A stretch of DNA of 50,904 bases from Minisyncoccota bacterium (GTDB lineage Bacteria > Patescibacteriota > Patescibacteriia > Patescibacteriales > UBA12465). The translations under genes and the position numbers were made by a program. Position 1 is the first letter of the stretch. Each line of letters starts with the position of its first letter. Under the pieces are notes generated by a model. The model worked only from the letters and a program-made list of their open reading frames with translations, did no database searches and had not been told where the DNA came from. Positions 7,901-50,705 of this stretch are shown piece after piece. The DNA lies in the NCBI GenBank assembly GCA_021734405.1, contig JAIPJA010000004.1, forward strand, positions 1-50,904, written 5' to 3'.

Positions 7901-9908
7901 ATGAAAAATAATCAAGAAATTAGAAAGGCTATGGAGGTTAGACTTTCTGATCAGTTGCCGTCACCTCCGATTTTTGACGAAAAGTATAATAGAGCGCCAA
8001 AACGTGTTTGTGCTTTAACTAAAGATGAAATGGAATTATCTTTGCGAAATGCTTTAAGGTATGTTCCTGAAAATCTCCATCATGTATTAGCTCCAGAATT
8101 TTTGCAAGAATTAAAATCATTTGGGCGTATATATGGTTATCGCTTTCGTCCACAGGGCAGGATTTATGGTAAGCCCATTGATGAGTATGAAGGTATTATA
8201 GAAGCCAGGGCTATGCAAGTTATGATTGATAATAACCTTGATTTTGAAGTAGCTTTGTATCCTTATGAATTGGTGACTTATGGTGCGAATGGGCAGGTGT
8301 TTCAAAACTGGATGCAATATCGTTTGGTCAAGAAGTATCTATCAATTATGAGGAAAGATCAAACTTTAGTGGTTAGCTCTGGTCACCCCTTAGGACTTTT
8401 CCCTTCTTCTGAGAATGCTCCCAGAGTAATCATCACAAACGGTCTGCTTGTTGGTCATTGGGACAATGAAGATAATTTTAAAAAGTTAGCTGCATTAGGC
8501 GTTAGTAATTATGGACAAATGACTGCCGGTGGTTGGATGTATATAGGTCCTCAAGGAATAGTGCATGGCACTTTTATTACTATTTTAAATGCGGCTAGGA
8601 AATATCTAAAAATACAAGGTAGCTCTTTAGCTGGTGTGAATTTTGTTTCTTCTGGTTTGGGCGGCATGTCTTGTGCTCAGCCTAAAGCCATGAAGATAGC
8701 TGGTGGCGTAGCTGTGATTGCCGAAGTGGATAAAAAGAAAATTGATCTACGCTTACGTCAGGGGTGGATAGACACATACACTGATAGTTTAGATGAAGTT
8801 GTCAGGCAATTAAATAAAAACACTAAAGAGAAGAAGCCCCTGGCTCTCGCGTATCATGGTAATGTGGTTAGCCTCTTGGAACATCTAGCTTCTAGGAATG
8901 TAAAAGTTAATTTATTATCAGATCAAACTTCTTGTCATGCTATGAGTGAGGGCGGGTATATGCCGGTGGATCTAGAATTTGAATCTAGTAAAAAATTATT
9001 AGATATTGATTCTGAAAAATTTGAAGTTTTTGTAAACAAATCATTGTCGCGTCATTTTCAAGCTATAAAAAAATTAGTTGCCCAGGGCTCGTTTTTTTGG
9101 GATTATGGTAATAATTTTATGAGTTCTATTTTTGCAAGCGGTGAAAAGGCTATTACCAAAAATGGAGTTGATTTAAGTCAGGGGTTTATTTGGCCTTCCT
9201 ATGTAGAAGATGTTATGGGACCCATGTGTTTTGATTATGGCTTTGGTCCTTTCCGGTGGGTTTGTTTAAGTGGTAAACAGTCAGATTTAGACTTAACAGA
9301 TAATATCGCTTTAAATATTATTAATCCCAATAAATCATCTATGCATGCAGACAATTATAACTGGATTAAATCAGCTAAAGAAAATGAATTAGTAGTAGGT
9401 ACTAAAGCACGTATTTTTTATAGTGATGAAGAAGGTAGAGTTAAAATTGCTTTAGCCTTTAATAAAGCTGTGCGTGAAAATAAAACTGGACCTATTATGA
9501 TTGGCAGAGATCATCATGATGTTTCCGGAACTGACTCTCCCTTCAGGGAAACATCTGACATAAAAGATGGCAGTCAAAGTACAGCTGATATGTCTGTACA
9601 ATGTTTTGCTGGCAATGTGGCTAGAGGAATGAGTATAGTAGTTTTGTCTAATGGAGGAGGAGTAGGAATTAGTAGGGCCAGTAATGGGGGGGAATGGTAT
9701 CGTTTTAGATGGAAGCACTGAGACAGATAAAATTATTAAACTTGGTTTGTCTTGGGACGTGATGGGCGGAGTAGCTAGAAGAAGTTGGGCAAGAAGTAAA
9801 AATGCTATTAATACTGCTAAAGAATGGAATTTGAAGATGTTGGGAAAAGGGCAAATAACCTTGCCTTATACCGTGTCAGATGAAGTTTTATCTGATTTAA
9901 ATTTATAA
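7901..9908 (+). CDS. hutU: urocanate hydratase, long animal-like form, interrupted by +1 frameshift at G7 (9686-9692)
   Basis: ORFs 7901-9721 and 9684-9908 join across GGGGGGG; motifs SGHPLGLFPSS, YGQMTAGGWMYIGPQGIVHGT, GFGPFRWVC, RDHHDVSGTDSPFRETS, and in the second frame NGIVLDGS..LSWDVMGGVARRSW. Confidence 0.93.
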
Positions 9909-10374: not shown

Positions 10375-11142
10375 ATGAACAGTAAAAACATTAACAAAGT
10401 TTTTGTAATTAATGCTGCGGGTGGCAATGCCACAGCTATTATGTTACTTAAAGAGCCTCTTAGCAGAGAAGAGTATGCTAAAATCGGTAAAAGAATGATG
10501 AATGATTTTGAGTCGTTTCAGGTTGAACAAGCAGGTTTTTTGCTTTTAGATACGATGCACTTTGAAATGAGTGGTGGTGAATTCTGTGGAAATGCTGCTA
10601 GAGCAGCTGCCATGTTGTTTTTTGATTTAAGACAATCAAATAAATTTACCATGTCAGGATTTTTAGGTGAAATAGTATCAAGAGTTAAATATACCTCTAC
10701 TGATAAAAAGATAGCTGAAGTAAGTTGTGACTTTCCCTCTTTAAATCCAGTGCCCCAATTAACCGACATTAAAAATACCAAGATAGTTGATTTGGGAGGG
10801 ATTGTGCATATAGTTGTTAATGATAATTTTCCAAAAGAAGATTATCAGCAAATTCATACAAAATTGACCGAGAGATTTAACTTGCAGAACAAAGCGGCTG
10901 TTGGGGTTGTTTGGTACAATATTTCAGGCAATGATGCGCGTATTGATCCAGTCGTTTGGGTAAAAGATATTGATAGTTTTTTTTATGAGACTTCTTGCGG
11001 TTCAGGTTCTATTGCTGTTGCCAGCGTATCTGGTGCAGAAAATATTTTTCAGCCTAGCGGTGAAAAAATTATTGTTAAAATTAATAATGAAGGAGTAAAT
11101 TTAAAAAGTGATATGGAGGTTATCTATGAAAGCGATGATTAA
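10375..11142 (+). CDS. DapF-fold amino acid racemase/epimerase, CntK (histidine racemase)-like
   Basis: 255 aa; two catalytic-Cys motifs MSGGEFCGNAARAAA and ETSCGSGSIAVASV resemble CntK more than canonical DapF. Confidence 0.7.
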   Translation: MNSKNINKVFVINAAGGNATAIMLLKEPLSREEYAKIGKRMMNDFESFQVEQAGFLLLDTMHFEMSGGEFCGNAARAAAMLFFDLRQSNKFTMSGFLGEIVSRVKYTSTDKKIAEVSCDFPSLNPVPQLTDIKNTKIVDLGGIVHIVVNDNFPKEDYQQIHTKLTERFNLQNKAAVGVVWYNISGNDARIDPVVWVKDIDSFFYETSCGSGSIAVASVSGAENIFQPSGEKIIVKINNEGVNLKSDMEVIYESDD

Positions 11143-11719
11143 GCAATTTACAGGTGATATTAATGGCCCTGTCTCTCGAGATTTTGTTAATCTTTACAAA
11201 AAGGTGTTTGCTGAGCCACCTTACTTTGAAAGCTATGAAGACTGTTGGATTTTTGAGAATATTTGGCATTATCATTTAGTTAAAGGATGTATTTTTTTGG
11301 CTTTTGATAAAGATAAATTGATTGGTTTTGGTTGCGGGGTAGGCATGGATAAAGTAGAAAAATTTTTGCCACAAAGCTCTGCCTTAGATCCACTCTTTAA
11401 AGTTAAATGTTTTTTACGGGACGAGGCTAGTGAGTATATTAACGGGAACTCTTTTTTTTATATGTCTGAAATAGGGGTAGATTCTAAATATAGAAGACAA
11501 GGGGTGGGTGGTTTACTTATAACTAGAAGATGGCTATGGGCTGCTCATAACAATTATAAGAATTATCTTATGAGAACTGATGAATTAAATAGTAATTCAC
11601 GTTCTTTGTACGAAAATTTAGGAGCAGAAATTTTACCCATCAAACAAGATGTCTCCGATCATGCCGCTATTATTAATTCTGCTAGCAAAACCAGAATTTA
11701 TTTGCATGGTTCATTGTAA
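11126..11719 (+). CDS. GNAT-family N-acetyltransferase
   Basis: IGVDSKYRRQGVGGLLITRRW acetyl-CoA motif; ATG at 11126 follows GGAGG; ORF track start is an upstream GTG at 11108. Confidence 0.8.
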   Translation: MKAMIKQFTGDINGPVSRDFVNLYKKVFAEPPYFESYEDCWIFENIWHYHLVKGCIFLAFDKDKLIGFGCGVGMDKVEKFLPQSSALDPLFKVKCFLRDEASEYINGNSFFYMSEIGVDSKYRRQGVGGLLITRRWLWAAHNNYKNYLMRTDELNSNSRSLYENLGAEILPIKQDVSDHAAIINSASKTRIYLHGSL

Positions 11720-11783: not shown

Positions 11784-12500
11784 ATGGATAAAAAAATTTT
11801 AACATATAAAGAATTGCAAAAGATAAGAGCTGGTGAAAATGATGATGCTTTAGTATCATTGAATAATTATTTTCCTACAGCAATATTTTGTAAATATGAA
11901 AAATTAGACATGTTGCCTTGGTCTGGTAATCATATTTTAATTAGAGAATCTATAGCTGAAAAACTTAAAAAAGCAGCTTTTAATTTACAAAAAATAGATA
12001 AAACTTTGCAGTTTAAAGTTGTTTATGGGTATAGGCATCCCACTATTCAAAAAAAATATTTTTTAAAACAAAAAAAATTATTATCTTTAAAATATTCTAA
12101 ATTAAATAATAAAGAATTAATTAATTTAACTCATAATTTTGTAGCCTCTCCAGATGTGGCGGGTCATCCCTGTGGAGCCGCCATAGATTTAACAATAATT
12201 AAAAATGGCAAGCCCCTAGCTATGGGAACTAAAATAGCTGACTTCAATAATCCCGAAGCCATTAAAACTTTTTATAAGAAGCTTACAGAAACCCAAAAAT
12301 TAAACAGATTAATGTTAAGAAAACTTATAATGGATCAAGGGTTTGCTCCTTTTAATGGTGAATGGTGGCATTTTTCTTATGGAGATAAGGAGTGGGCATT
12401 TTATTATAAACAAAAATCCTCTCTATATTCATCTTTATCATTGACAAAAAAAGAAATATATAATATTATAAATAAAAATAAGATAAAATCGGGTGTGTAG
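11784..12500 (+). CDS. VanX/DdpX-like D-Ala-D-Ala dipeptidase (M15 family)
   Basis: 238 aa; zinc motifs AGHPCGAAIDL (SxHxxGxAxD-like) and EWWHF. Confidence 0.8.
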   Translation: MDKKILTYKELQKIRAGENDDALVSLNNYFPTAIFCKYEKLDMLPWSGNHILIRESIAEKLKKAAFNLQKIDKTLQFKVVYGYRHPTIQKKYFLKQKKLLSLKYSKLNNKELINLTHNFVASPDVAGHPCGAAIDLTIIKNGKPLAMGTKIADFNNPEAIKTFYKKLTETQKLNRLMLRKLIMDQGFAPFNGEWWHFSYGDKEWAFYYKQKSSLYSSLSLTKKEIYNIINKNKIKSGV

Positions 12501-12564
12501 CTCAGTTGGCTAGAGCAATAGATTGTGGATCTAAAGGTCGCGGGTTCGAATCCCGTCATACCCT
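12491..12564 (+). tRNA. tRNA-His (GTG anticodon)
   Basis: cloverleaf: acceptor GGGTGTG/CATACCC, D-stem GCTC/GAGC, anticodon loop TTGTGGA, T-arm GCGGG-TTCGAAT-CCCGT, position 73 = T, no encoded CCA. Confidence 0.93.
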
Positions 12565-12567
12565 CTT

Positions 12568-12595
12568 GACCTGTAAACTTACAGGTCTTTTTTTT
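12568..12595 (+). terminator. intrinsic terminator after tRNA-His
   Basis: GACCTGTA-AACT-TACAGGTC followed by TTTTTTTT. Confidence 0.9.
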
Positions 12596-12664: not shown

Positions 12665-14062
12665 ATGGAAAGAATAATCAAGCCAGAAAGACCGGCTGGG
12701 TTTATTGATTATAATACAGAATATTTTTTAGCCAGAGAATCTATGGTTAATAAAATAAGTAAAGTTTTCAGATCTTTTGGTTATAATCCAATTGAAACTC
12801 CATTAGCTGAATTCCTTAAAACCTTAGTTGGTACTGATGAAACTTCTAAAAATATTTTTTCATTAAGAAGTTTAAATTCGTCTTCAGGAGACGATGATAT
12901 TGCTTTGAGATTTGATCACACTGTGCCTTTCGCTCGTTTTTTAGCGGCTAATCCTTACAATAAAGAAAATCAATCAGGCATTAAATTGCCATGGAGAAGG
13001 TCCGTCTATGGTCCAGTGTTTCGTGGTGACACCCCCCAAAAAGGCAGGTTTAGGCAGTTTTATCAATTTGATATTGATGTGGCTGGCTCTTCTTCTATGC
13101 TTGCTGACGCTGAGATAGTTGCTGTTATCTATAACACATTAAAAGAGCTATCCATTTCTAACTTTGTTATTAAAGTGAATAACAGAAAAATATTAAATGG
13201 TTTTATTGATCTTCTAAACATAAAAAAAAGAGGGGAAATTAGTGCTAATGAAATTGCTATGGAGATAATGAGAATTTTAGATAAAATTCAAAAAAATTCA
13301 TGGGACATTGTAAAACAAGAATTAGCGCAAAAACCAGTTAATAAATTTGATGTTAGCCCAGGGCTTATTAAGGAAGATATTGTGAAAATTGAAAGATTCT
13401 TGCGCTTACAGGGTAGCAATGATGAAAAAATTACTCAATGTTTTTCTTTATTTTCTGGAATTAAAATTGCTGAGGATGGCTTAACAGAGTTAAGAAAAAT
13501 GTTAGAATTTTTATCATGCCAAACCGTAGATCTCGATTATGTAAAAATAGATTTTTCTGTTGCTAGAGGCTTAGATTATTACACTGGCCCAGTATTTGAA
13601 ACATTTATTAATTCAGCCCTCGAATTTGGTAGTATTTTTTCTGGTGGTCGTTATGATGAATTGTTTTCTAGATTTACAGGAAAGAAATTACCTGCCGTAG
13701 GGGCTTCGATTGGTGTTGATAGATTTTTTTCAGTTTTAAACCATTTAAATCTTCTAAACCTGAAACAAAAAAAAGTTGCCGATGTAATTATTTTACGATT
13801 ATCGGATGATGATAAATTTATTCAGGATTATCTATTTTTCGCTGATAGCTTAAGAAAATTAGGTGTAAACGCCGAGATAAGCTTATTGGAAAATAAAGAT
13901 TTTTCTGCTCAATTTAATTTTGCTATTAGTCAAAGTTATAATTACGCTTTAATTTTTGGCGAAAGAGAGCGGGAGAAAAATGTTGTTGTTATCAAAGATT
14001 TAATAAAAAGAGAACAGAAAGAATTAAAATTTTCGGAATTTAATAATTTTTTTAAATCATAA
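12665..14062 (+). CDS. hisS: histidyl-tRNA synthetase (class II, divergent motif 2)
   Basis: 465 aa; RFDHTVPFARF, FRGDTPQKGRFRQFYQFDIDVAG, ARGLDYYTGPVFE, GGRYDELF, GASIGVDR. Confidence 0.93.
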   Translation: MERIIKPERPAGFIDYNTEYFLARESMVNKISKVFRSFGYNPIETPLAEFLKTLVGTDETSKNIFSLRSLNSSSGDDDIALRFDHTVPFARFLAANPYNKENQSGIKLPWRRSVYGPVFRGDTPQKGRFRQFYQFDIDVAGSSSMLADAEIVAVIYNTLKELSISNFVIKVNNRKILNGFIDLLNIKKRGEISANEIAMEIMRILDKIQKNSWDIVKQELAQKPVNKFDVSPGLIKEDIVKIERFLRLQGSNDEKITQCFSLFSGIKIAEDGLTELRKMLEFLSCQTVDLDYVKIDFSVARGLDYYTGPVFETFINSALEFGSIFSGGRYDELFSRFTGKKLPAVGASIGVDRFFSVLNHLNLLNLKQKKVADVIILRLSDDDKFIQDYLFFADSLRKLGVNAEISLLENKDFSAQFNFAISQSYNYALIFGEREREKNVVVIKDLIKREQKELKFSEFNNFFKS

Positions 14063-14073
14063 AAATTTATATC

Positions 14074-15738
14074 ATGAATGAAATTGTAATAAATGGCCAA
14101 AATTTAAGTATCCAAGATACAATTTTGGTTGCTCGTGGTTATCACGATGGTTATCGACATCATTTTCCTTTAGTAGTTTTAGATGAAGAGATAAAAGAAA
14201 AGCTTAAAATATTTCGTGAAGCTTTAGAAGAGAGAATTGCTGCTAAAGACATTATGTATGGCGTCAATACGGGTTGCGGAATAAAAAAAGGAACTGTTAT
14301 TTCTGCTGATGAAATTAACAATTATCAGAAGCATTACATTCCTGCGCATTGTGTTGCTATTGGAGAATTTTTTCCAGAAGAAGTAGTGAGGGCAGCTATG
14401 ATTTTTAGGGTAAATTCTTTTGCCCTTGGACACTCTGGCGTTAGACTTGAGTTGTGTGAGAAAATTTTGGAATTTTACAATAAAGGTATTATTCCTTGCG
14501 TACCTTCTCAAGGCTCAGTAGGTTCTAGTGGTGATTTGTGCTTTTTAGCTCATATTTCAGCGGCATTGATAGGTTTAAAAGAACAACAAGTTTTTTTCGA
14601 GGGAGAAATAATGTCTTGTGAAGTGGCTCTTGAAAAAGCTAGAGTGCAACCGATTAGTCTAAAAGCAAAAGAGGCCATGGCTCTTACCAATGGGTCGACC
14701 TTTATTTTGGCTCAGGGTATATTAGCTATTTATGACATTGAAAATTTGATTGATACTGCTAATATAGCAGCAGCTTTGTCGTTAGAAGCTATTAGAGGAG
14801 AGATTGATGCTTTTGACGAAAGAGTTCATGCCATTAGAAAAAGCGAAGGAGCTAATAATTGTGCTCAGGTGATTAGAGATTTATGTTGCGAATCGAAAAG
14901 AATGAGTAAAGCCTCACAAGATAAAACCTTGCCAGCCGAAAAACACATCAAAAAATTTGATGTTCAAGGGAAACCTGTTCCTAGAGTCCAAGATGCCTAT
15001 TCATTTAGAGCACATGCTCAGGTTATGGGATCTGTTATGGAAGCTTTTGATTTTTGTAAAGAAATTTTTAAGAGAGAATTAAATGCTGCCACTGACAATC
15101 CTTTAATTTTTGAAGAAGGTGACGGTTTTAGAGCTATATCAGGGGGCAATTTTCATGGAGAGCCTTTAGCCCAAGCAGCAGATTTTTTAAAAATTGCTGT
15201 ACAACAATTAGCCAATATTTCAGATCGTCGCTTTTATGCGCTAACCATGCCCAGTACCAGCTACGGCTTACCAGCTGATTTAGTTGGTTTGAGTAATCCA
15301 GATTTAAATACTGGCTTAATGATTTTGCAGTATAGTACGGCTGCATTGGTAAATGAAAATAAAAGCCTTTGCCATCCAAGTGTTATTGACTCTATTCCAA
15401 CCTCAGCTAATCAGGAGGACTATGTTTCCATGGGGGCAACTTCTGCTAAGTTTTTACGTAAAGTTGTAGAAAATACGACTTATGTTGTTGCGGCGGAATT
15501 ATTAGCCGCTGCCCAAGGAATTTCCTGGACTGAAGAAGATTTAGGACCTGATTTAAGTCCTTTAGGCACTAAAACGAAACGGGCTTATAATTTTATTCGT
15601 CAATATGTAAAAGTCATGGATGATGATAGATTTATTCAAGCAGATTGGCTTAAAATCATTGAGCAGATCAAAAACCAGGAATTTGTTAGATATGTTTATG
15701 ATGACAACCCTGGTTGTCGTTATTTGCACATACATTAA
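14074..15738 (+). CDS. hutH: histidine ammonia-lyase (MIO family)
   Basis: 554 aa; YGVNTGCG, GSVGSSGDL MIO region, GGNFHGEPLAQAAD, SIPTSANQEDYVSMGA. Confidence 0.92.
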   Translation: MNEIVINGQNLSIQDTILVARGYHDGYRHHFPLVVLDEEIKEKLKIFREALEERIAAKDIMYGVNTGCGIKKGTVISADEINNYQKHYIPAHCVAIGEFFPEEVVRAAMIFRVNSFALGHSGVRLELCEKILEFYNKGIIPCVPSQGSVGSSGDLCFLAHISAALIGLKEQQVFFEGEIMSCEVALEKARVQPISLKAKEAMALTNGSTFILAQGILAIYDIENLIDTANIAAALSLEAIRGEIDAFDERVHAIRKSEGANNCAQVIRDLCCESKRMSKASQDKTLPAEKHIKKFDVQGKPVPRVQDAYSFRAHAQVMGSVMEAFDFCKEIFKRELNAATDNPLIFEEGDGFRAISGGNFHGEPLAQAADFLKIAVQQLANISDRRFYALTMPSTSYGLPADLVGLSNPDLNTGLMILQYSTAALVNENKSLCHPSVIDSIPTSANQEDYVSMGATSAKFLRKVVENTTYVVAAELLAAAQGISWTEEDLGPDLSPLGTKTKRAYNFIRQYVKVMDDDRFIQADWLKIIEQIKNQEFVRYVYDDNPGCRYLHIH

Positions 15739-28975: not shown

Positions 28976-29869
28976 TTATAGTCCGTATCTTTCTATATTC
29001 TTATCAGCTAGTTTTTGAATTTCTTTAATTTGTTCTTTACCTTTTTTATCTTTAAATAAATGAGCAAACCTACCTTGGGGCTCTAAGTAATCTTTAACAG
29101 GTTTTTTGTTTTTACCTAAAACTGACTTGTTTACTAATACTCCATTTTCATATTCCAGAAGTGGATAAAGTCCGGTTTGAACCGCTAACTGTCCCATACT
29201 TAAACCCTCATCAGGTTTAATCTTCCAACCAGGAATGCAAGGTGAAAGTATTTGAATGTAAGCAGGTCCACTGTGAGAAATAGCCTTTTTAACCTTATTA
29301 GTTATATCACTGGGATAGCCAGCTGTGCTTTGAGCAACGTAGTTTAAGCCATGAGCTAGAGCAATAGCTATCATATCTTTTTTTACTTGACTTGAGCCAA
29401 GAGAGTTAGAACCAGCAGGAGTAGTAGTAGTGCTGGCTGATATGGGAGTAGCCCCTGAAGCTTGAATACCAGTATTGGAGTAAGCTTCAGTATCATAGGC
29501 GATATATAGTATATTTTCTCCTCTTTCCCACATGCCACTAACTAAACCAAAACCAATATCAAAAGTACCTCCATCACCACCTTGAGCAATAACTTTAGTT
29601 TTTTTATCACCTTTAGTATTTAAAGCTGCTCTAATTCCTGAAGCTACAGCTGCAGCATTTTCAAATAGAGAGTGTATCCAAGGCACGCCCCAAGCGGTTT
29701 CTGGATAGGGAGTAGTGGTTACCTCTAAACAACCTGTAGCATTGGCAATTATAATATCTCTGCTCATGCCAGAGGCAACAGCCATAGCAGCAATCATTTG
29801 ACCACAACCAGCACAGGCTCGATGGCCACTGCCTAGGATTGGTTTTTGTTTTTTAGTATTTTTTGTCAT
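28976..29869 (-). CDS. porB: pyruvate/2-ketoacid:ferredoxin oxidoreductase, beta subunit
   Basis: 297 aa; GHRACAGCGQMIAAMAV, GCLEVTTTPYPETAWGVPWIHSLFENAAAVASGI, AQGGDGGTFDIGFG. Confidence 0.95.
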   Translation of the reverse strand: MTKNTKKQKPILGSGHRACAGCGQMIAAMAVASGMSRDIIIANATGCLEVTTTPYPETAWGVPWIHSLFENAAAVASGIRAALNTKGDKKTKVIAQGGDGGTFDIGFGLVSGMWERGENILYIAYDTEAYSNTGIQASGATPISASTTTTPAGSNSLGSSQVKKDMIAIALAHGLNYVAQSTAGYPSDITNKVKKAISHSGPAYIQILSPCIPGWKIKPDEGLSMGQLAVQTGLYPLLEYENGVLVNKSVLGKNKKPVKDYLEPQGRFAHLFKDKKGKEQIKEIQKLADKNIERYGL

Positions 29870-29900
29870 AATATTTTTTTTACAGCACTAAGAAATTTTG

Positions 29901-31148
29901 TTAAGGTGCTACATAATAACAGCAGGCTAAAGGTTCTTTACACATCCTGCCTGAGCCAAAAAAAATGTTTCCAATCTGATAGCTACTAACAAAATCATTA
30001 TACCAATGATTGTTCTTATCACAACCTTGAGAGTTTGTTTGCTCGCCATTGTTTAAAGCATAACATTTTGAACCTCCTTGGGCTCCACAGCTTTCACCCA
30101 TAGTTCCCTTACCAAAGAATGGTTTGCCACTATAGCAGTAGCAGTAATCAGAGCCTGAGTAATTATCACAAGCTTTACCGTCAGTTTTTTGTGCACAGTC
30201 AACTACAACTCCACTACATTCGCTTAGTCGCGAACAGTTAGCTCCTTGTTCAAACACTGGTCTGCTAGAAAGACCAGAGCCAATAATGTTAAAGCAGACA
30301 TCATTGTTAGTGGTTTGACAGCTAGAAGCGGAGTTTATATTACTTCCTACCAAATTTTGACAGTCTTGACAGACCTTTTCCATGAATTGGCAAGGTGGTC
30401 TACCTTCAGGACAACATTGTGTTTCACATGCTTGGTAAATAAGTTCGCTATAACTTAATCTGGGTATATAATATTTTTGTTGTTCACTGGCAGAAGTTGC
30501 TATTTTACAACAACCATTAGCTTCACAATGACTATAATCACTATTTGGGCCATAATTTTCTAACCATGCACCATTTTGAGCTTCACAGTCAGGTTGTGTC
30601 ATGTTTGAAGCAGTTTCACCTATTTGACAACAACCATAAACTATATTTGTTAATAAGATCGTTTCTATAGGCTTTAATTTAGTTAAGTCAGTATTTATAC
30701 TGTTTAATATGACATAAGCTCCTACAAGCAGGATTACGCCTAAAGTCGCCCCAGTTATATATGATTTAGCTTGGCTTATTTTATCTGGACTACCAGCAGA
30801 AGTTAGCCATATTACACCTCCCACAGCTATCATTACTACTGCTAAAGTAATACCAACCCCTATGGCATAGTCATAAATAGATATTATGTATTTTCCTAAT
30901 AAGTCGCTTGTAACTATCCATATTTCTGTAGGTATAATGCCAAAGGGGTCTTTTTCTGCCTCTTCTCCTAAATGTCCCGCAGGGACATTTTTTCCTTTTT
31001 CAAAATCTGATCCAGGAATAGTCACAGAGGGTTTAAATTCCACGCTATCAAAAGATGGCTCTGTTTGAGCTAGCGTGGTTTGAGGAAGGGCTACAAAGGG
31101 GCTAATGATTATTAATAAAAGAAAAATTTTTAAAAAAGTTTTTTTCAT
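29901..31148 (-). CDS. VirB2/TrbC-like pilin N-terminal region fused to Cys-rich C-terminal domain
   Basis: 415 aa; signal peptide; two TMs around GGVIWLTSAGSPDKISQAKSYITGATLGVILLVGAYVILNSINTDL; about 26 Cys in the C-terminal part. Confidence 0.7.
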   Translation of the reverse strand: MKKTFLKIFLLLIIISPFVALPQTTLAQTEPSFDSVEFKPSVTIPGSDFEKGKNVPAGHLGEEAEKDPFGIIPTEIWIVTSDLLGKYIISIYDYAIGVGITLAVVMIAVGGVIWLTSAGSPDKISQAKSYITGATLGVILLVGAYVILNSINTDLTKLKPIETILLTNIVYGCCQIGETASNMTQPDCEAQNGAWLENYGPNSDYSHCEANGCCKIATSASEQQKYYIPRLSYSELIYQACETQCCPEGRPPCQFMEKVCQDCQNLVGSNINSASSCQTTNNDVCFNIIGSGLSSRPVFEQGANCSRLSECSGVVVDCAQKTDGKACDNYSGSDYCYCYSGKPFFGKGTMGESCGAQGGSKCYALNNGEQTNSQGCDKNNHWYNDFVSSYQIGNIFFGSGRMCKEPLACCYYVAP

Positions 31149-31149
31149 A

Positions 31150-32334
31150 TTAGCTTATAAAAATAGCTTTGTTAGTGTCTTGGCTATTTATGTTAATAAT
31201 TTTATTTATTTTCTTTTTAGTAATATCTCTACCTCCTAGCCCAGCGATGATGCTATAAATTTTAGCTGGAGTTTTTCCTTGCAGTGCGCTTTTTAGTTCA
31301 CTTGCCATTGGACCAACGTTGCCTAAACTAATAGCTTTTTCAATTACTATTATTTTCTTGGCGTTTTTAAGATTTTTTATAATTTGCTTGTAGGGAAAAG
31401 GTCTGATGACTTTTAACTTTAAAACAGCCACCTCTTTATTTTCATCTACCACTTCCTTTATAGTCCCTACTACTGAGCCCATAGCTACAATTACAGTCTT
31501 AGCCTTCTTTTTACCATAATACTCTATTAGGGCACTACTATCTTTAGTAGCAATATCTTTGCCTAAGGTTTTTTGTAGTTTTTTGTATTCTTTTTCAATT
31601 AAGTCTATTGAATTTGAGAGGTCGTCTTGTAGAGATTGTCTAATTTCTTGGTAATAGGCGGGTCTAGCAAAAGATCCCATGGTCATAGGCTCTTTAGGGT
31701 TTAAATATGAGCCTTTTGTAGGGCTGTATTTAGGTAAGTATTTTTTTATCTGGGCTTTAGTAGGAATAATTACTGGTTCATAGGAATGAGTTAAAATAAA
31801 GCCATCAATATTTACCATAGCTGGGATATTTAAGGTTTCAGCTAGTTTGTAGGCTAGTAAATGTTGAGCTACAGCTTCTTGATGATTTTCAGCAAAAAAC
31901 ATTAACCAACCAGCATCCCTGACAGTCATAGCATCTTGATGGTCATTCCAAATAGTTATGGGGCTAGAAACACCTCTATTAGCTATAGTTAAAACTATTG
32001 GCAGTCTTAGCCCAGCCATATTAAAAATTACTTCAGTCATAAGCAGTAGTCCTTGAGAACTAGTAGCGCTATAGGTTCTAACGCCAGTAGCACTAGCTCC
32101 AACTACAATTGAAGCAGCCGCAAACTCACTCTCAGCTCTGACGTATTCATAACTAGCTTTACCATCAGCTTTAAACTTAGCCAAGTCTTCTACGATATGA
32201 GTTTGAGGCGTAATAGGGTAAGCTGAAACTACATCTGGCTCAATATTAGCCACTGTTAAAGCGACTGCTCTAGAACCTTCTAAAATATTAGAGCCTTTAG
32301 GTATTTTTATTTTTTTCTTGTTATTATTTTTCAT
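31150..32334 (-). CDS. porA: pyruvate/2-ketoacid:ferredoxin oxidoreductase, alpha subunit
   Basis: 394 aa; YPITPQTHIVEDLAKF, ESEFAAASIVVGASATGVRTYSATSSQGLLLM. Confidence 0.95.
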   Translation of the reverse strand: MKNNNKKKIKIPKGSNILEGSRAVALTVANIEPDVVSAYPITPQTHIVEDLAKFKADGKASYEYVRAESEFAAASIVVGASATGVRTYSATSSQGLLLMTEVIFNMAGLRLPIVLTIANRGVSSPITIWNDHQDAMTVRDAGWLMFFAENHQEAVAQHLLAYKLAETLNIPAMVNIDGFILTHSYEPVIIPTKAQIKKYLPKYSPTKGSYLNPKEPMTMGSFARPAYYQEIRQSLQDDLSNSIDLIEKEYKKLQKTLGKDIATKDSSALIEYYGKKKAKTVIVAMGSVVGTIKEVVDENKEVAVLKLKVIRPFPYKQIIKNLKNAKKIIVIEKAISLGNVGPMASELKSALQGKTPAKIYSIIAGLGGRDITKKKINKIININSQDTNKAIFIS

Positions 32335-32614
32335 CTCTTTTCATAATTATGGCTTTAACTGGGCAATGCTTAGCGCAGACTGCACAGCCTTTGCAATAGT
32401 CATAGTTAACCTCAGCCTTATCTTGGCCCTTTATTTTTTTCATAGAAATAGCTCTTTCCGGACAAATTTGACTACATAACTTACAGCCAATACATTTATT
32501 TTTATCTATTTCCGGTTTAAAAGTACGCCAAGAACCAGTCAAATTTCTATCAGTTGTGCCTGGTTGAGCATTTATATCTAAGTTGTTTTTTTTCTGTTTT
32601 TTCTTATTTATCAT
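32324..32614 (-). CDS. porD: pyruvate:ferredoxin oxidoreductase delta subunit (2[4Fe-4S] ferredoxin)
   Basis: CIGCKLCSQICPERAI and CKGCAVCAKHCPVKAI. Confidence 0.95.
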   Translation of the reverse strand: MINKKKQKKNNLDINAQPGTTDRNLTGSWRTFKPEIDKNKCIGCKLCSQICPERAISMKKIKGQDKAEVNYDYCKGCAVCAKHCPVKAIIMKRDEK

Positions 32615-33161
32615 AAGCTATACTTACTGCTTTTAAATTCTTTTTTACTATTTCCTGATTTTTTTCAGAAAACTTTTCTGAAATAGCCTGTTTTAGTCCT
32701 TTTAAAGTAATAATTTCAGTTTGTTTAGCTAAAGCGCCTAAAATAACAGTATTGGCTAAGTTTTTTCCTAAAATCTTTAAAGCAATGCCAGTAGCGTCTA
32801 TAGTTAAAAGACTATTTTGCTTATTTTTTAAATTAGGATATTTTTTAATAATCTCCTGTGGGTTTAAAGTGGTATTTATTAGTATCTTGGTGTTATTGTT
32901 TACACCACTTTTAACTGCTTCTGAACCTAAAAGACTAGCATCTAAAATTATTACTATATCAGGATTATATATTTGTTCCCGGGTGCGAATAAAGTTAGTA
33001 TCTATTCTAGCAAAAGCTTCAATAGGAGCTCCAGTCCTCTCTACGCCAAAAGAAGGGAAGGCTTGAGAAAAAAAACCATCTTTAAAAGCGCTAATAGCAA
33101 TTATTTCTGAGGCCGTAACTACTCCTTGCCCGCCTCGACCATGTACGCGTATTTCTTTCAT
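32604..33161 (-). CDS. porC: pyruvate:ferredoxin oxidoreductase gamma subunit
   Basis: 185 aa; RVHGRGGQGVVTASEIIA, SFGVERTGAPIEAFARI. Confidence 0.95.
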   Translation of the reverse strand: MKEIRVHGRGGQGVVTASEIIAISAFKDGFFSQAFPSFGVERTGAPIEAFARIDTNFIRTREQIYNPDIVIILDASLLGSEAVKSGVNNNTKILINTTLNPQEIIKKYPNLKNKQNSLLTIDATGIALKILGKNLANTVILGALAKQTEIITLKGLKQAISEKFSEKNQEIVKKNLKAVSIAYDK

Positions 33162-48589: not shown

Positions 48590-48979
48590 ATGAAAACTAT
48601 ACTTGTTGTATTTCTTAGCTTTATAATGATGTTTCTGGGTTGCGGTAAAGATGAGCCAGTCAACCCGGACCCACCTGTTCCCAACCCGGAGTATATTATT
48701 ATCACGGTCAGAGCTGTTGATTCGCAGCTATTTGATTCTAAAATAGCCGTGCCAGCTTTAAACATGGAAAATAATTCGATGTCACGTGTAAATGATGACG
48801 ACCCTACTAGGGAGAAAAAAGTCGTATTCTCTTATGACGATTTCCATAACACCAGTCAGCTGGTTAAAGTCATGCTGATATTAGACCCTAATGGTGATGG
48901 AAAATCCCCTTGGGAGATTGTAGAACTCGAACAAAACATTTTAATTGACGAGGACAAGGTAATTGTCTTTAGTCAATGA
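48590..48979 (+). CDS. small lipoprotein, copy 1
   Basis: 129 aa; lipobox MMFLGCGK; DPNGDGK; preceded by GGAGG. Confidence 0.75.
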   Translation: MKTILVVFLSFIMMFLGCGKDEPVNPDPPVPNPEYIIITVRAVDSQLFDSKIAVPALNMENNSMSRVNDDDPTREKKVVFSYDDFHNTSQLVKVMLILDPNGDGKSPWEIVELEQNILIDEDKVIVFSQ

Positions 48980-49120: not shown

Positions 49121-49510
49121 ATGAAACTTATATCTATTGTATTTTTGAGCTTTATGATGTTGTTTATGGGTTGCGAAAAAGATCCCGTGGATCCCGATCC
49201 ACCGGTTCCGCCTAATCCGGAGTTTATTACCTTAACGGTAAGAGCTGTTGATTCACATTTGCTTACTTCTAAATTAGCTGTGCCAGCTTTAGGCATGGAG
49301 AATAGAGTGATGCCAGCCGTGAGTCTTGACCCTGTGGTCACCGAGAAAAAGATTTTTTTTGATTATGAAGATTTTCATAACACTAGCCAGCTGATTAAAG
49401 TAGAGTTTATTCTCGATCCCGACGGTGACGGTAAAGCACCTTATGAGGTGTTTGAACTCGAACAAACGGTTCTTATTGACGAAGATAAGGTAATTGTCTT
49501 TAGTCAATAA
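49121..49510 (+). CDS. small lipoprotein, copy 2
   Basis: 129 aa; lipobox MLFMGCEK; DPDGDGK; C-terminal ELEQTVLIDEDKVIVFSQ shared with copy 1; preceded by GGAGG. Confidence 0.75.
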   Translation: MKLISIVFLSFMMLFMGCEKDPVDPDPPVPPNPEFITLTVRAVDSHLLTSKLAVPALGMENRVMPAVSLDPVVTEKKIFFDYEDFHNTSQLIKVEFILDPDGDGKAPYEVFELEQTVLIDEDKVIVFSQ

Positions 49511-49614: not shown

Positions 49615-50705
49615 AGGTTTAATGGTCAAAAATGGTTGGTGAAAAACAGGTTTTATGCTGTAATAATAGTATTAATATTAACATCAATTTAAACTTGTTT
49701 AACTCTATGACTATTTTTTTAAAAGAATTGTCCAGTTTGTAGGACTAATAAATGGTTAATAAAGTGGGGGATAAGAGATAATCGACAACGATTTAAATGT
49801 CAAAAATGTTGTCGATTTTTTGTTTGCAAAATTAAAAGTAATTCCATTAATAGACAAAGAATATGGTTTAAAAAGTGGGTATTTAAAAAAGATACCTTAG
49901 AAGATATAGCTAAAGATAAAAAATGTTCTGTTAGCACTATTCAAAGATTATTTAAAAACTATTTAGAAAGCCCACCAGTTCCACAAGTTAAAGAAAATAA
50001 TTGTAGTTATTTAATGATAGACGGAACCTATTTTAGTGATTTTTGTCAGTTAAACTATTTTGATAATGATTTAAAATATTTGCAATATTTCGACATAGTT
50101 AAAAAAGAAAACTATCTAGACTACAAGATGGGCTTAGAGTTATTAAAGAAGGCAGGGTTACAAGTTTCTAGTATTACCTGTGATGGCCATAAAGGGCTAC
50201 TGAACGCTATTTCTGAGATTTTCCCCAATACTACTATACAACGTTGCGTAGTTCATATAATTAGAATGAGTAATATATATTTAAGACAAAAACCTAAATA
50301 CCCAGTTGCTATTGAACTCAAAGAAATAGTTAAAAAACTTAGTCTAGTAAATAGCTATGATGAGAAGGAAATGTGGATTCAATCATTTAAAAACTGGGAA
50401 CAAAAATATTATCATTTTTTACAAGAAAAAACTGAACATATCTCTGGCAGAAAAAGATATACCCACAGACTACTTAGAAGAACCAGATCACTTATCTCTC
50501 ATGCTATGCCTAATTTATTTCACTATCTAGATGATAGAAAAATACTTAAATCAAACAATGGTTTAGAGTCTAGATTTTTTTATTTAAAAAATAACCTCCG
50601 AACACATAGAGGCTTATCTAGAAAACATACAAAAAACTTTCTTAGCTGGTATTCATATTTTAAATATAGGGGTTAAATTACCAACCATTTTTGACCATTA
50701 AACCT
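49615..50705 (+). mobile_element. IS256/IS1249-like insertion sequence
   Basis: perfect 26-bp TIR AGGTTTAATGGTCAAAAATGGTTGGT (49615-49640) / ACCAACCATTTTTGACCATTAAACCT (50680-50705) flanking a transposase. Confidence 0.88.
49707..50676 (+). CDS. IS transposase (zinc ribbon + MULE-like DDE domain); needs frameshift near 49713-49724
   Basis: in-frame upstream extension encodes NCPVCRTNKWLIKWGIRDNRQRFKCQKCCRFF; DGTYFSDF, CDGHKGL, QRCVVHIIR, NNGLESRFFYLKNNLRTHRGLSRKH. Confidence 0.8.

Follow-up and report, generated by a model that had tools for sequence, protein, structure and literature searches.

The G-1:C73 end pair marks tRNA-His in nearly all bacteria. What, then, is to be made of a gene which has the GUG anticodon and the full cloverleaf of a canonical bacterial tRNA-His, yet encodes C at position -1 and T at position 73? 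Such a gene is located in a stretch of 50,904 nucleotides of DNA from a Minisyncoccota bacterium, here called the window. According to the literature a single bacterial group, the Alphaproteobacteria, is known with tRNA-His lacking G-1; reviews hold that C73 is otherwise universal in bacteria. The window is one contig (C48) of a draft genome of 1.01 Mb in 51 contigs which is 95.6% complete. Related named loci are from Moraniibacteriota, Paceibacterota and Nomurabacteria, which most probably places the organism in the Candidate Phyla Radiation (Patescibacteria).

The tRNA-His gene and its ends

The tRNA gene, its promoter and terminator and the genes of its cluster are all on the forward strand. 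ARAGORN calls a tRNA-His(gtg) at 12491-12565, and Rfam RF00005 matches 12491-12564, i.e., tRNA positions 1 to 73, with 68.2 bits (cut-off 29). Read from the T-arm, positions 1-7 of the acceptor stem are GGGTGTG and positions 66-72 CATACCC, with seven of seven pairs formed, one of them G.U. The encoded base at -1 (12490) is C, not G, and position 73 (12564) is T, corresponding to U73 in place of C73. CTTG follows; a CCA end is not encoded. This bears out the first-pass annotation, which had read exactly this stem and these flanking bases. A register error is ruled out as the T-arm and T8-A9 anchors yield identical ends. A further irregularity is an A27.A43 mismatch in the anticodon stem. A base other than G at -1 is ordinary in other tRNAs (122 of 131 here have A, C or T); the departure is the loss of a feature specific for tRNA-His.

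The gene looks transcribed from a unit of its own, judging from a predicted promoter and terminator. A promoter-like element, TTGACA-N17-TATTAT, is positioned at 12441..12469 within the 3' end of the preceding peptidase ORF and agrees with the consensus at 11 of 12 positions. The same two hexamers with the same spacing precede the tRNA-His genes of the corresponding clusters in G003 and G100, two genomes from other genera of the same family; the hexamers are thus conserved in three genera. Downstream, at 12568..12595, an intrinsic terminator consists of an 8-bp hairpin and eight T (-11.7 kcal/mol, z -5.3). The score of 68 bits, the promoter and the terminator rule out a pseudogene on structural grounds. 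Rfam scans returned no T-box or other known leader RNA above threshold, and a scan of viral contigs gave no match to the tRNA.

A cluster of histidine-use genes

The tRNA gene is embedded in the order hutU, epimerase, GNAT, M15 peptidase, tRNA-His, hisS2, hutH-like. The urocanate hydratase gene hutU (7901..9721; TIGR01228 398 bits, above cut-off, and tblastn with the HutU of relatives) is thrown out of frame by +1 within seven consecutive G (9686-9692), beyond which the remaining frame extends to about 9899; this is possibly real or possibly an assembly error. The DapF-like epimerase (10375..11142) is nearest to the histidine racemases HisR and CntK, with an NF052224 score of 80 bits (E 1.9e-22), below the cut-off of 400; the gene is also present in the clusters of G100 and G035. 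A GNAT acetyltransferase (11108..11719; PF00583, E 4e-10) and a VanX/VanY-like M15 peptidase (11784..12500; PF01427, 59 bits) follow. The frame of the latter reads across the promoter and into the tRNA gene, where T8-A9-G10 supplies the stop codon.

Downstream of the tRNA, hisS2 (12665..14062) encodes an accessory histidyl-tRNA synthetase of 465 aa, HisRS2, so assigned by its score (TIGR00442, 325.9 bits against a hisS equivalog cut-off of 286.75), by its position in the tree and by motif 2. Its residues Q125 and R130 are the counterparts of Q118 and R123 of E. coli HisRS. The next gene (14074..15738) is of the histidine ammonia-lyase family and hutH-like (PF00221, 518 bits), with scores for PRK09367 (504 bits) and TIGR01225 (477 bits) both just below the cut-offs. 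Neither a His T-box leader, as judged by Rfam scans, nor a histidine decarboxylase was seen in the cluster.

The cluster recurs in altered order in G100 (epimerase, GNAT, M15 peptidase, tRNA-His, hutU, two other genes, hisS2, hutH) and in G003 (tRNA-His, hutU, hisS2, hutH). The cluster tRNAs of both genomes keep G-1 and C73 and are 82-87% identical to that of the window. A shared origin of the window gene with the housekeeping tRNA-His of the family was rejected, the identity being merely 54-57%.

HisRS2 and its linked tRNAs

In a tree of 71 HisRS sequences the HisRS2 of the window belongs to a clade of ten members (UFBoot/SH-aLRT 100/98) which are scattered over several families of the phylum. 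Seven of the ten (window, G003, G100, G255, G199, G443, G269) have a tRNA-His gene adjacent to that of the synthetase or close by. In G443 and G269 this tRNA gene is positioned about 15-20 nt 3' of hisS2; in G255 and G199 it is directly upstream of hisS2, next to a bona fide hutH. The ends of these tRNAs differ: C-1/U73 in the window, G-1/C73 in G003 and G100, C-1/A73 in G255, T-1/A73 in G199, C-1/C73 in G443 and T-1/C73 in G269. All seven acceptor stems start with GGG, those of the 31 distinct tRNA-His unlinked to HisRS2 with GTG. G-1 is not encoded in five of the seven linked genes against none of the 31 unlinked ones (Fisher p 4e-5, uncorrected for shared ancestry and therefore overstating the evidence, as the seven loci share ancestry). 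Further, all 31 unlinked tRNA-His have both G-1 and C73 while both positions depart in the window; neither chance nor one sequencing error is thus a likely cause. The two bases are known from a metagenome assembly only, for which reads were not at hand. The seven linked tRNAs keep the cloverleaf, with 18 double-sided changes in eight pairs; -1 and 73 pair in only 43%.

Does the enzyme vary along with the tRNA ends? In E. coli HisRS, R123 contacts G-1 (PMC10100707). G255 and G199, the members with A73, have Asn at the matching residue of HisRS2. The enzymes of the window, G443 and G269 keep the R123 counterpart; hence the apparent co-variation of enzyme and tRNA end is partial only. The branch of the window HisRS2 is longer (0.53 versus 0.24 and 0.18).

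As a separate observation, a SLOG-family gene (LDcluster4/TIGR00725) and an unassigned gene similar to phosphoribosyltransferases are repeatedly present in the vicinity of genes for HisRS2 or a related HisRS, in four distant genomes (L238:9090-10706, L239:4150-7301, L237:3068-6403, L144:11356-13135).

Is there a housekeeping tRNA-His?

Three genes of the window's genome exceed the hisS equivalog cut-off, i.e., hisS2 and one each on contigs C31 and C40. The C31 gene is family-wide and intact. The C40 product (G000:C40, L138:962-2308) and its orthologues in the family (L217-L230) represent a vertically inherited HisRS of bacterial type with altered signature motifs: RGL[N/S/A]YY instead of RGLDYY, and a motif 2 without the usual Pro. 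Nearly all family members examined have a second HisRS of another type, either C31-like or, in G002, G009 and G016, window-like; the G003 copy of the C40 type is split over two frames. The old, vertically inherited HisRS may be changing its role.

G003 and G100 each possess, beside the cluster copy, a second, housekeeping tRNA-His of very different sequence. In 14 of 14 family loci checked the housekeeping gene adjoins tRNA-Arg(UCU), and the two are usually accompanied by the gene of a SpoU methylase. In the draft assembly of the window's genome a second, canonical tRNA-His, as envisaged in the first-pass annotation, was found neither by pattern nor by DNA search nor via the flanking SpoU gene. 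The SpoU gene and tRNA-Arg(UCU) were not found in this assembly either, the SpoU search having been run without a positive control. Of 482 Arg codons counted in twenty window genes, 308 are AGA, by far the most frequent. With the whole block absent despite this preference for AGA, the locus most simply lies in an assembly gap; the negative searches are not taken as true absence of the housekeeping copy. Further, some tRNA genes of this genome have introns which hide them from scans. On C51 (G000:C51, L130, reverse strand, about 1546-1880) a tRNA-Phe appears to be split by an insert, several hundred bases long and probably a group I intron, which follows the anticodon region; ARAGORN miscalls the gene as tRNA-Ser. 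From the presumed gap and the hidden genes we infer that the window tRNA-His is most likely an accessory copy, not the housekeeping tRNA-His of the cell.

The enzyme Thg1 (PF04446), the other item to look for according to the first-pass annotation, was not detected in the window's genome and 39 relatives; a control genome, Methanosarcina, was detected. Repair of the Thg1 type is ruled out by its absence from these 40 genomes, and U73 would not template G-1.

A proposed linked accessory pair and competing explanations

The explanation which we favor, with somewhat better than even confidence, is that HisRS2 and its tRNA-His constitute an accessory pair which is maintained as a linked unit, is charged with a relaxed requirement for G-1:C73 or none, and keeps histidyl-tRNA available where HutH consumes histidine. 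The unit would move among the small-genome bacteria of the phylum and, here, would have settled inside a histidine-use cluster. The tRNA would be transcribed from its own promoter. RNase P presumably cuts at +1 because C-1 is unable to pair with U73, and addition of CCA would complete the molecule. HisRS2 would then charge the tRNA by way of its anticodon, probably together with the GGG acceptor stem, and the pair would secure histidyl-tRNA when HutH draws histidine down. This proposal is suggested by the seven linked loci, the GGG stems, the loss of G-1 in five of seven, the Asn in place of R123 in G255 and G199, the cloverleaf kept by double-sided changes, the conserved promoter hexamers, the Hut and racemase-like genes, with HutH adjoining the HisRS2 unit in G255 and G199 too, the lack of Thg1, and the precedent of the second hisS beside histidine decarboxylase in lactobacilli. 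Against it, the window HisRS2 retains Q125 and R130, the counterparts of the E. coli residues that read C73 and G-1, so that a compensating change is not visible in the enzyme, and G-1:C73 is retained by the closest orthologous tRNAs. The first-pass annotation had considered U73 without G-1 an unusual identity scheme. As a hypothesis this holds for the linked pair, given a gene that looks transcribed and G-1-less HisRS2-linked relatives in other families; what it implied for the general histidine identity of the organism is unsupported in view of three hisS genes, the housekeeping G-1:C73 tRNA-His of relatives with the same cluster, and the missing block.

The main rival is decay. The cluster tRNA would be a dispensable extra copy while the housekeeping HisRS and tRNA-His do the work; G-1 would have been lost as the distance to the preceding peptidase gene shortened, followed by C73 and the 27-43 pair. 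Such a course fits the orthologues in G003 and G100, which have retained G-1:C73 as well as a spacer, and the unchanged motif 2 of HisRS2; the A27.A43 mismatch, the longer HisRS2 branch and the hutU frameshift are compatible with it. Against decay stand the intact cloverleaf at 68.2 bits, the conserved promoter and terminator, the intact HisRS2 ORF, and four other HisRS2-linked tRNAs without G-1. We regard decay as unlikely, though deserving of serious consideration. Improbable, in our judgement, is a takeover in which the old tRNA-His is gone and the whole cell runs on a C-1/U73 scheme with the window gene as its sole tRNA-His. The assembly yielded no other tRNA-His, and the altered motifs of the vertically inherited HisRS, e.g., RGLNYY, would agree with this; yet the joint absence of tRNA-Arg(UCU) and the SpoU gene speaks for a gap, the apparently split tRNA-Phe illustrates that introns can hide tRNAs, and the family-wide hisS on C31 is intact. 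Still more doubtful is a role in biosynthesis dependent on histidyl-tRNA, e.g., transfer of histidine by the GNAT of the cluster, for which a ribosomal housekeeping identity would not be needed. GNAT, racemase-like, M15 peptidase and deacylase genes do recur beside HisRS2, but none of the genes found belongs to a known family of transferases that use aminoacyl-tRNA, and the GNATs match ordinary acetyltransferase models.

Beyond the linked accessory pair we tentatively suggest a more far-reaching possibility, in which the second HisRS/tRNA-His pair of the phylum is naturally orthogonal to the housekeeping pair, leaves G-1:C73 unread, tolerates U, A or C as base 73 and is linked with histidine catabolism. 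If true, bacteria would have departed from the G-1:C73 rule a second time, independently. Repeated loss of G-1 and variation of position 73 in a linked accessory pair would illustrate how histidine identity becomes free to drift when there is a backup pair; the co-evolution of HisRS with the tRNA end would become testable in natural pairs, and ready-made orthogonal HisRS/tRNA pairs could be supplied. In the literature searched, mostly without subscription papers, we found no description of a linked pair of the HisRS2 type in this phylum.

Comparison with known systems

The G-1-less tRNA-His/HisRS of Alphaproteobacteria (Caulobacter, Rhizobiales and relatives) resembles the present case in that G-1 is not encoded, Thg1 is not found and a HisRS is dedicated to the tRNA. 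The tRNA there has A73, whereas among the HisRS2-linked tRNAs A73 is limited to G255 and G199 and the window has U73. In the alphaproteobacterial HisRS the Gln of motif 2 is replaced by Gly (PMC3937112); in the window HisRS2 (position 125) and in all aligned relatives Gln is kept. Finally, the alphaproteobacterial pair is the sole pair of a vertical clade, that of the window an accessory, linked one. The window pair works in part like the alphaproteobacterial case but falls outside that group, since both A73 and the replacement of Gln by Gly are missing.

In the histidine-decarboxylase islands of lactobacilli an extra HisRS gene accompanies a histidine-consuming enzyme and peptidases; the second hisS was proposed to keep His-tRNA available despite the consumption of histidine, and for one island a tRNA gene is listed next to hisS (PMC5313534, PMC4122935). 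Similarly, in the window an extra hisS, one of three in the genome, adjoins the gene of a histidine-consuming enzyme (hutH at 14074). The enzyme is a decarboxylase there and an ammonia-lyase here; the islands are under T-box control, which was not found here, and no change of tRNA-His identity is reported for them. The tyrS of tyramine (TDC) clusters likewise is a synthetase gene that accompanies an amino-acid-degrading cluster (PMC3315439), yet for tyrosine and, as far as described there, without a dedicated tRNA. One archaeon possesses two PylRS/tRNA-Pyl pairs which are separated by the discriminator base (PMC9071458), i.e., a single genome has two pairs with the same specificity that differ at N73. 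There, orthogonality is demonstrated and the amino acid is pyrrolysine; here, orthogonality is suspected and the amino acid is histidine.

Other genes of the window

Genes similar to subunits of 2-oxoacid:ferredoxin oxidoreductases are located at 28976-33161, two of them separated by an unrelated membrane-protein ORF (29901-31148). Tandem paralogous ORFs for small lipoprotein-like products (48590-48979 and 49121-49510) come after the gene for a Cys-rich protein of 2780 aa, with a transposase-like ORF next in order at 50014.
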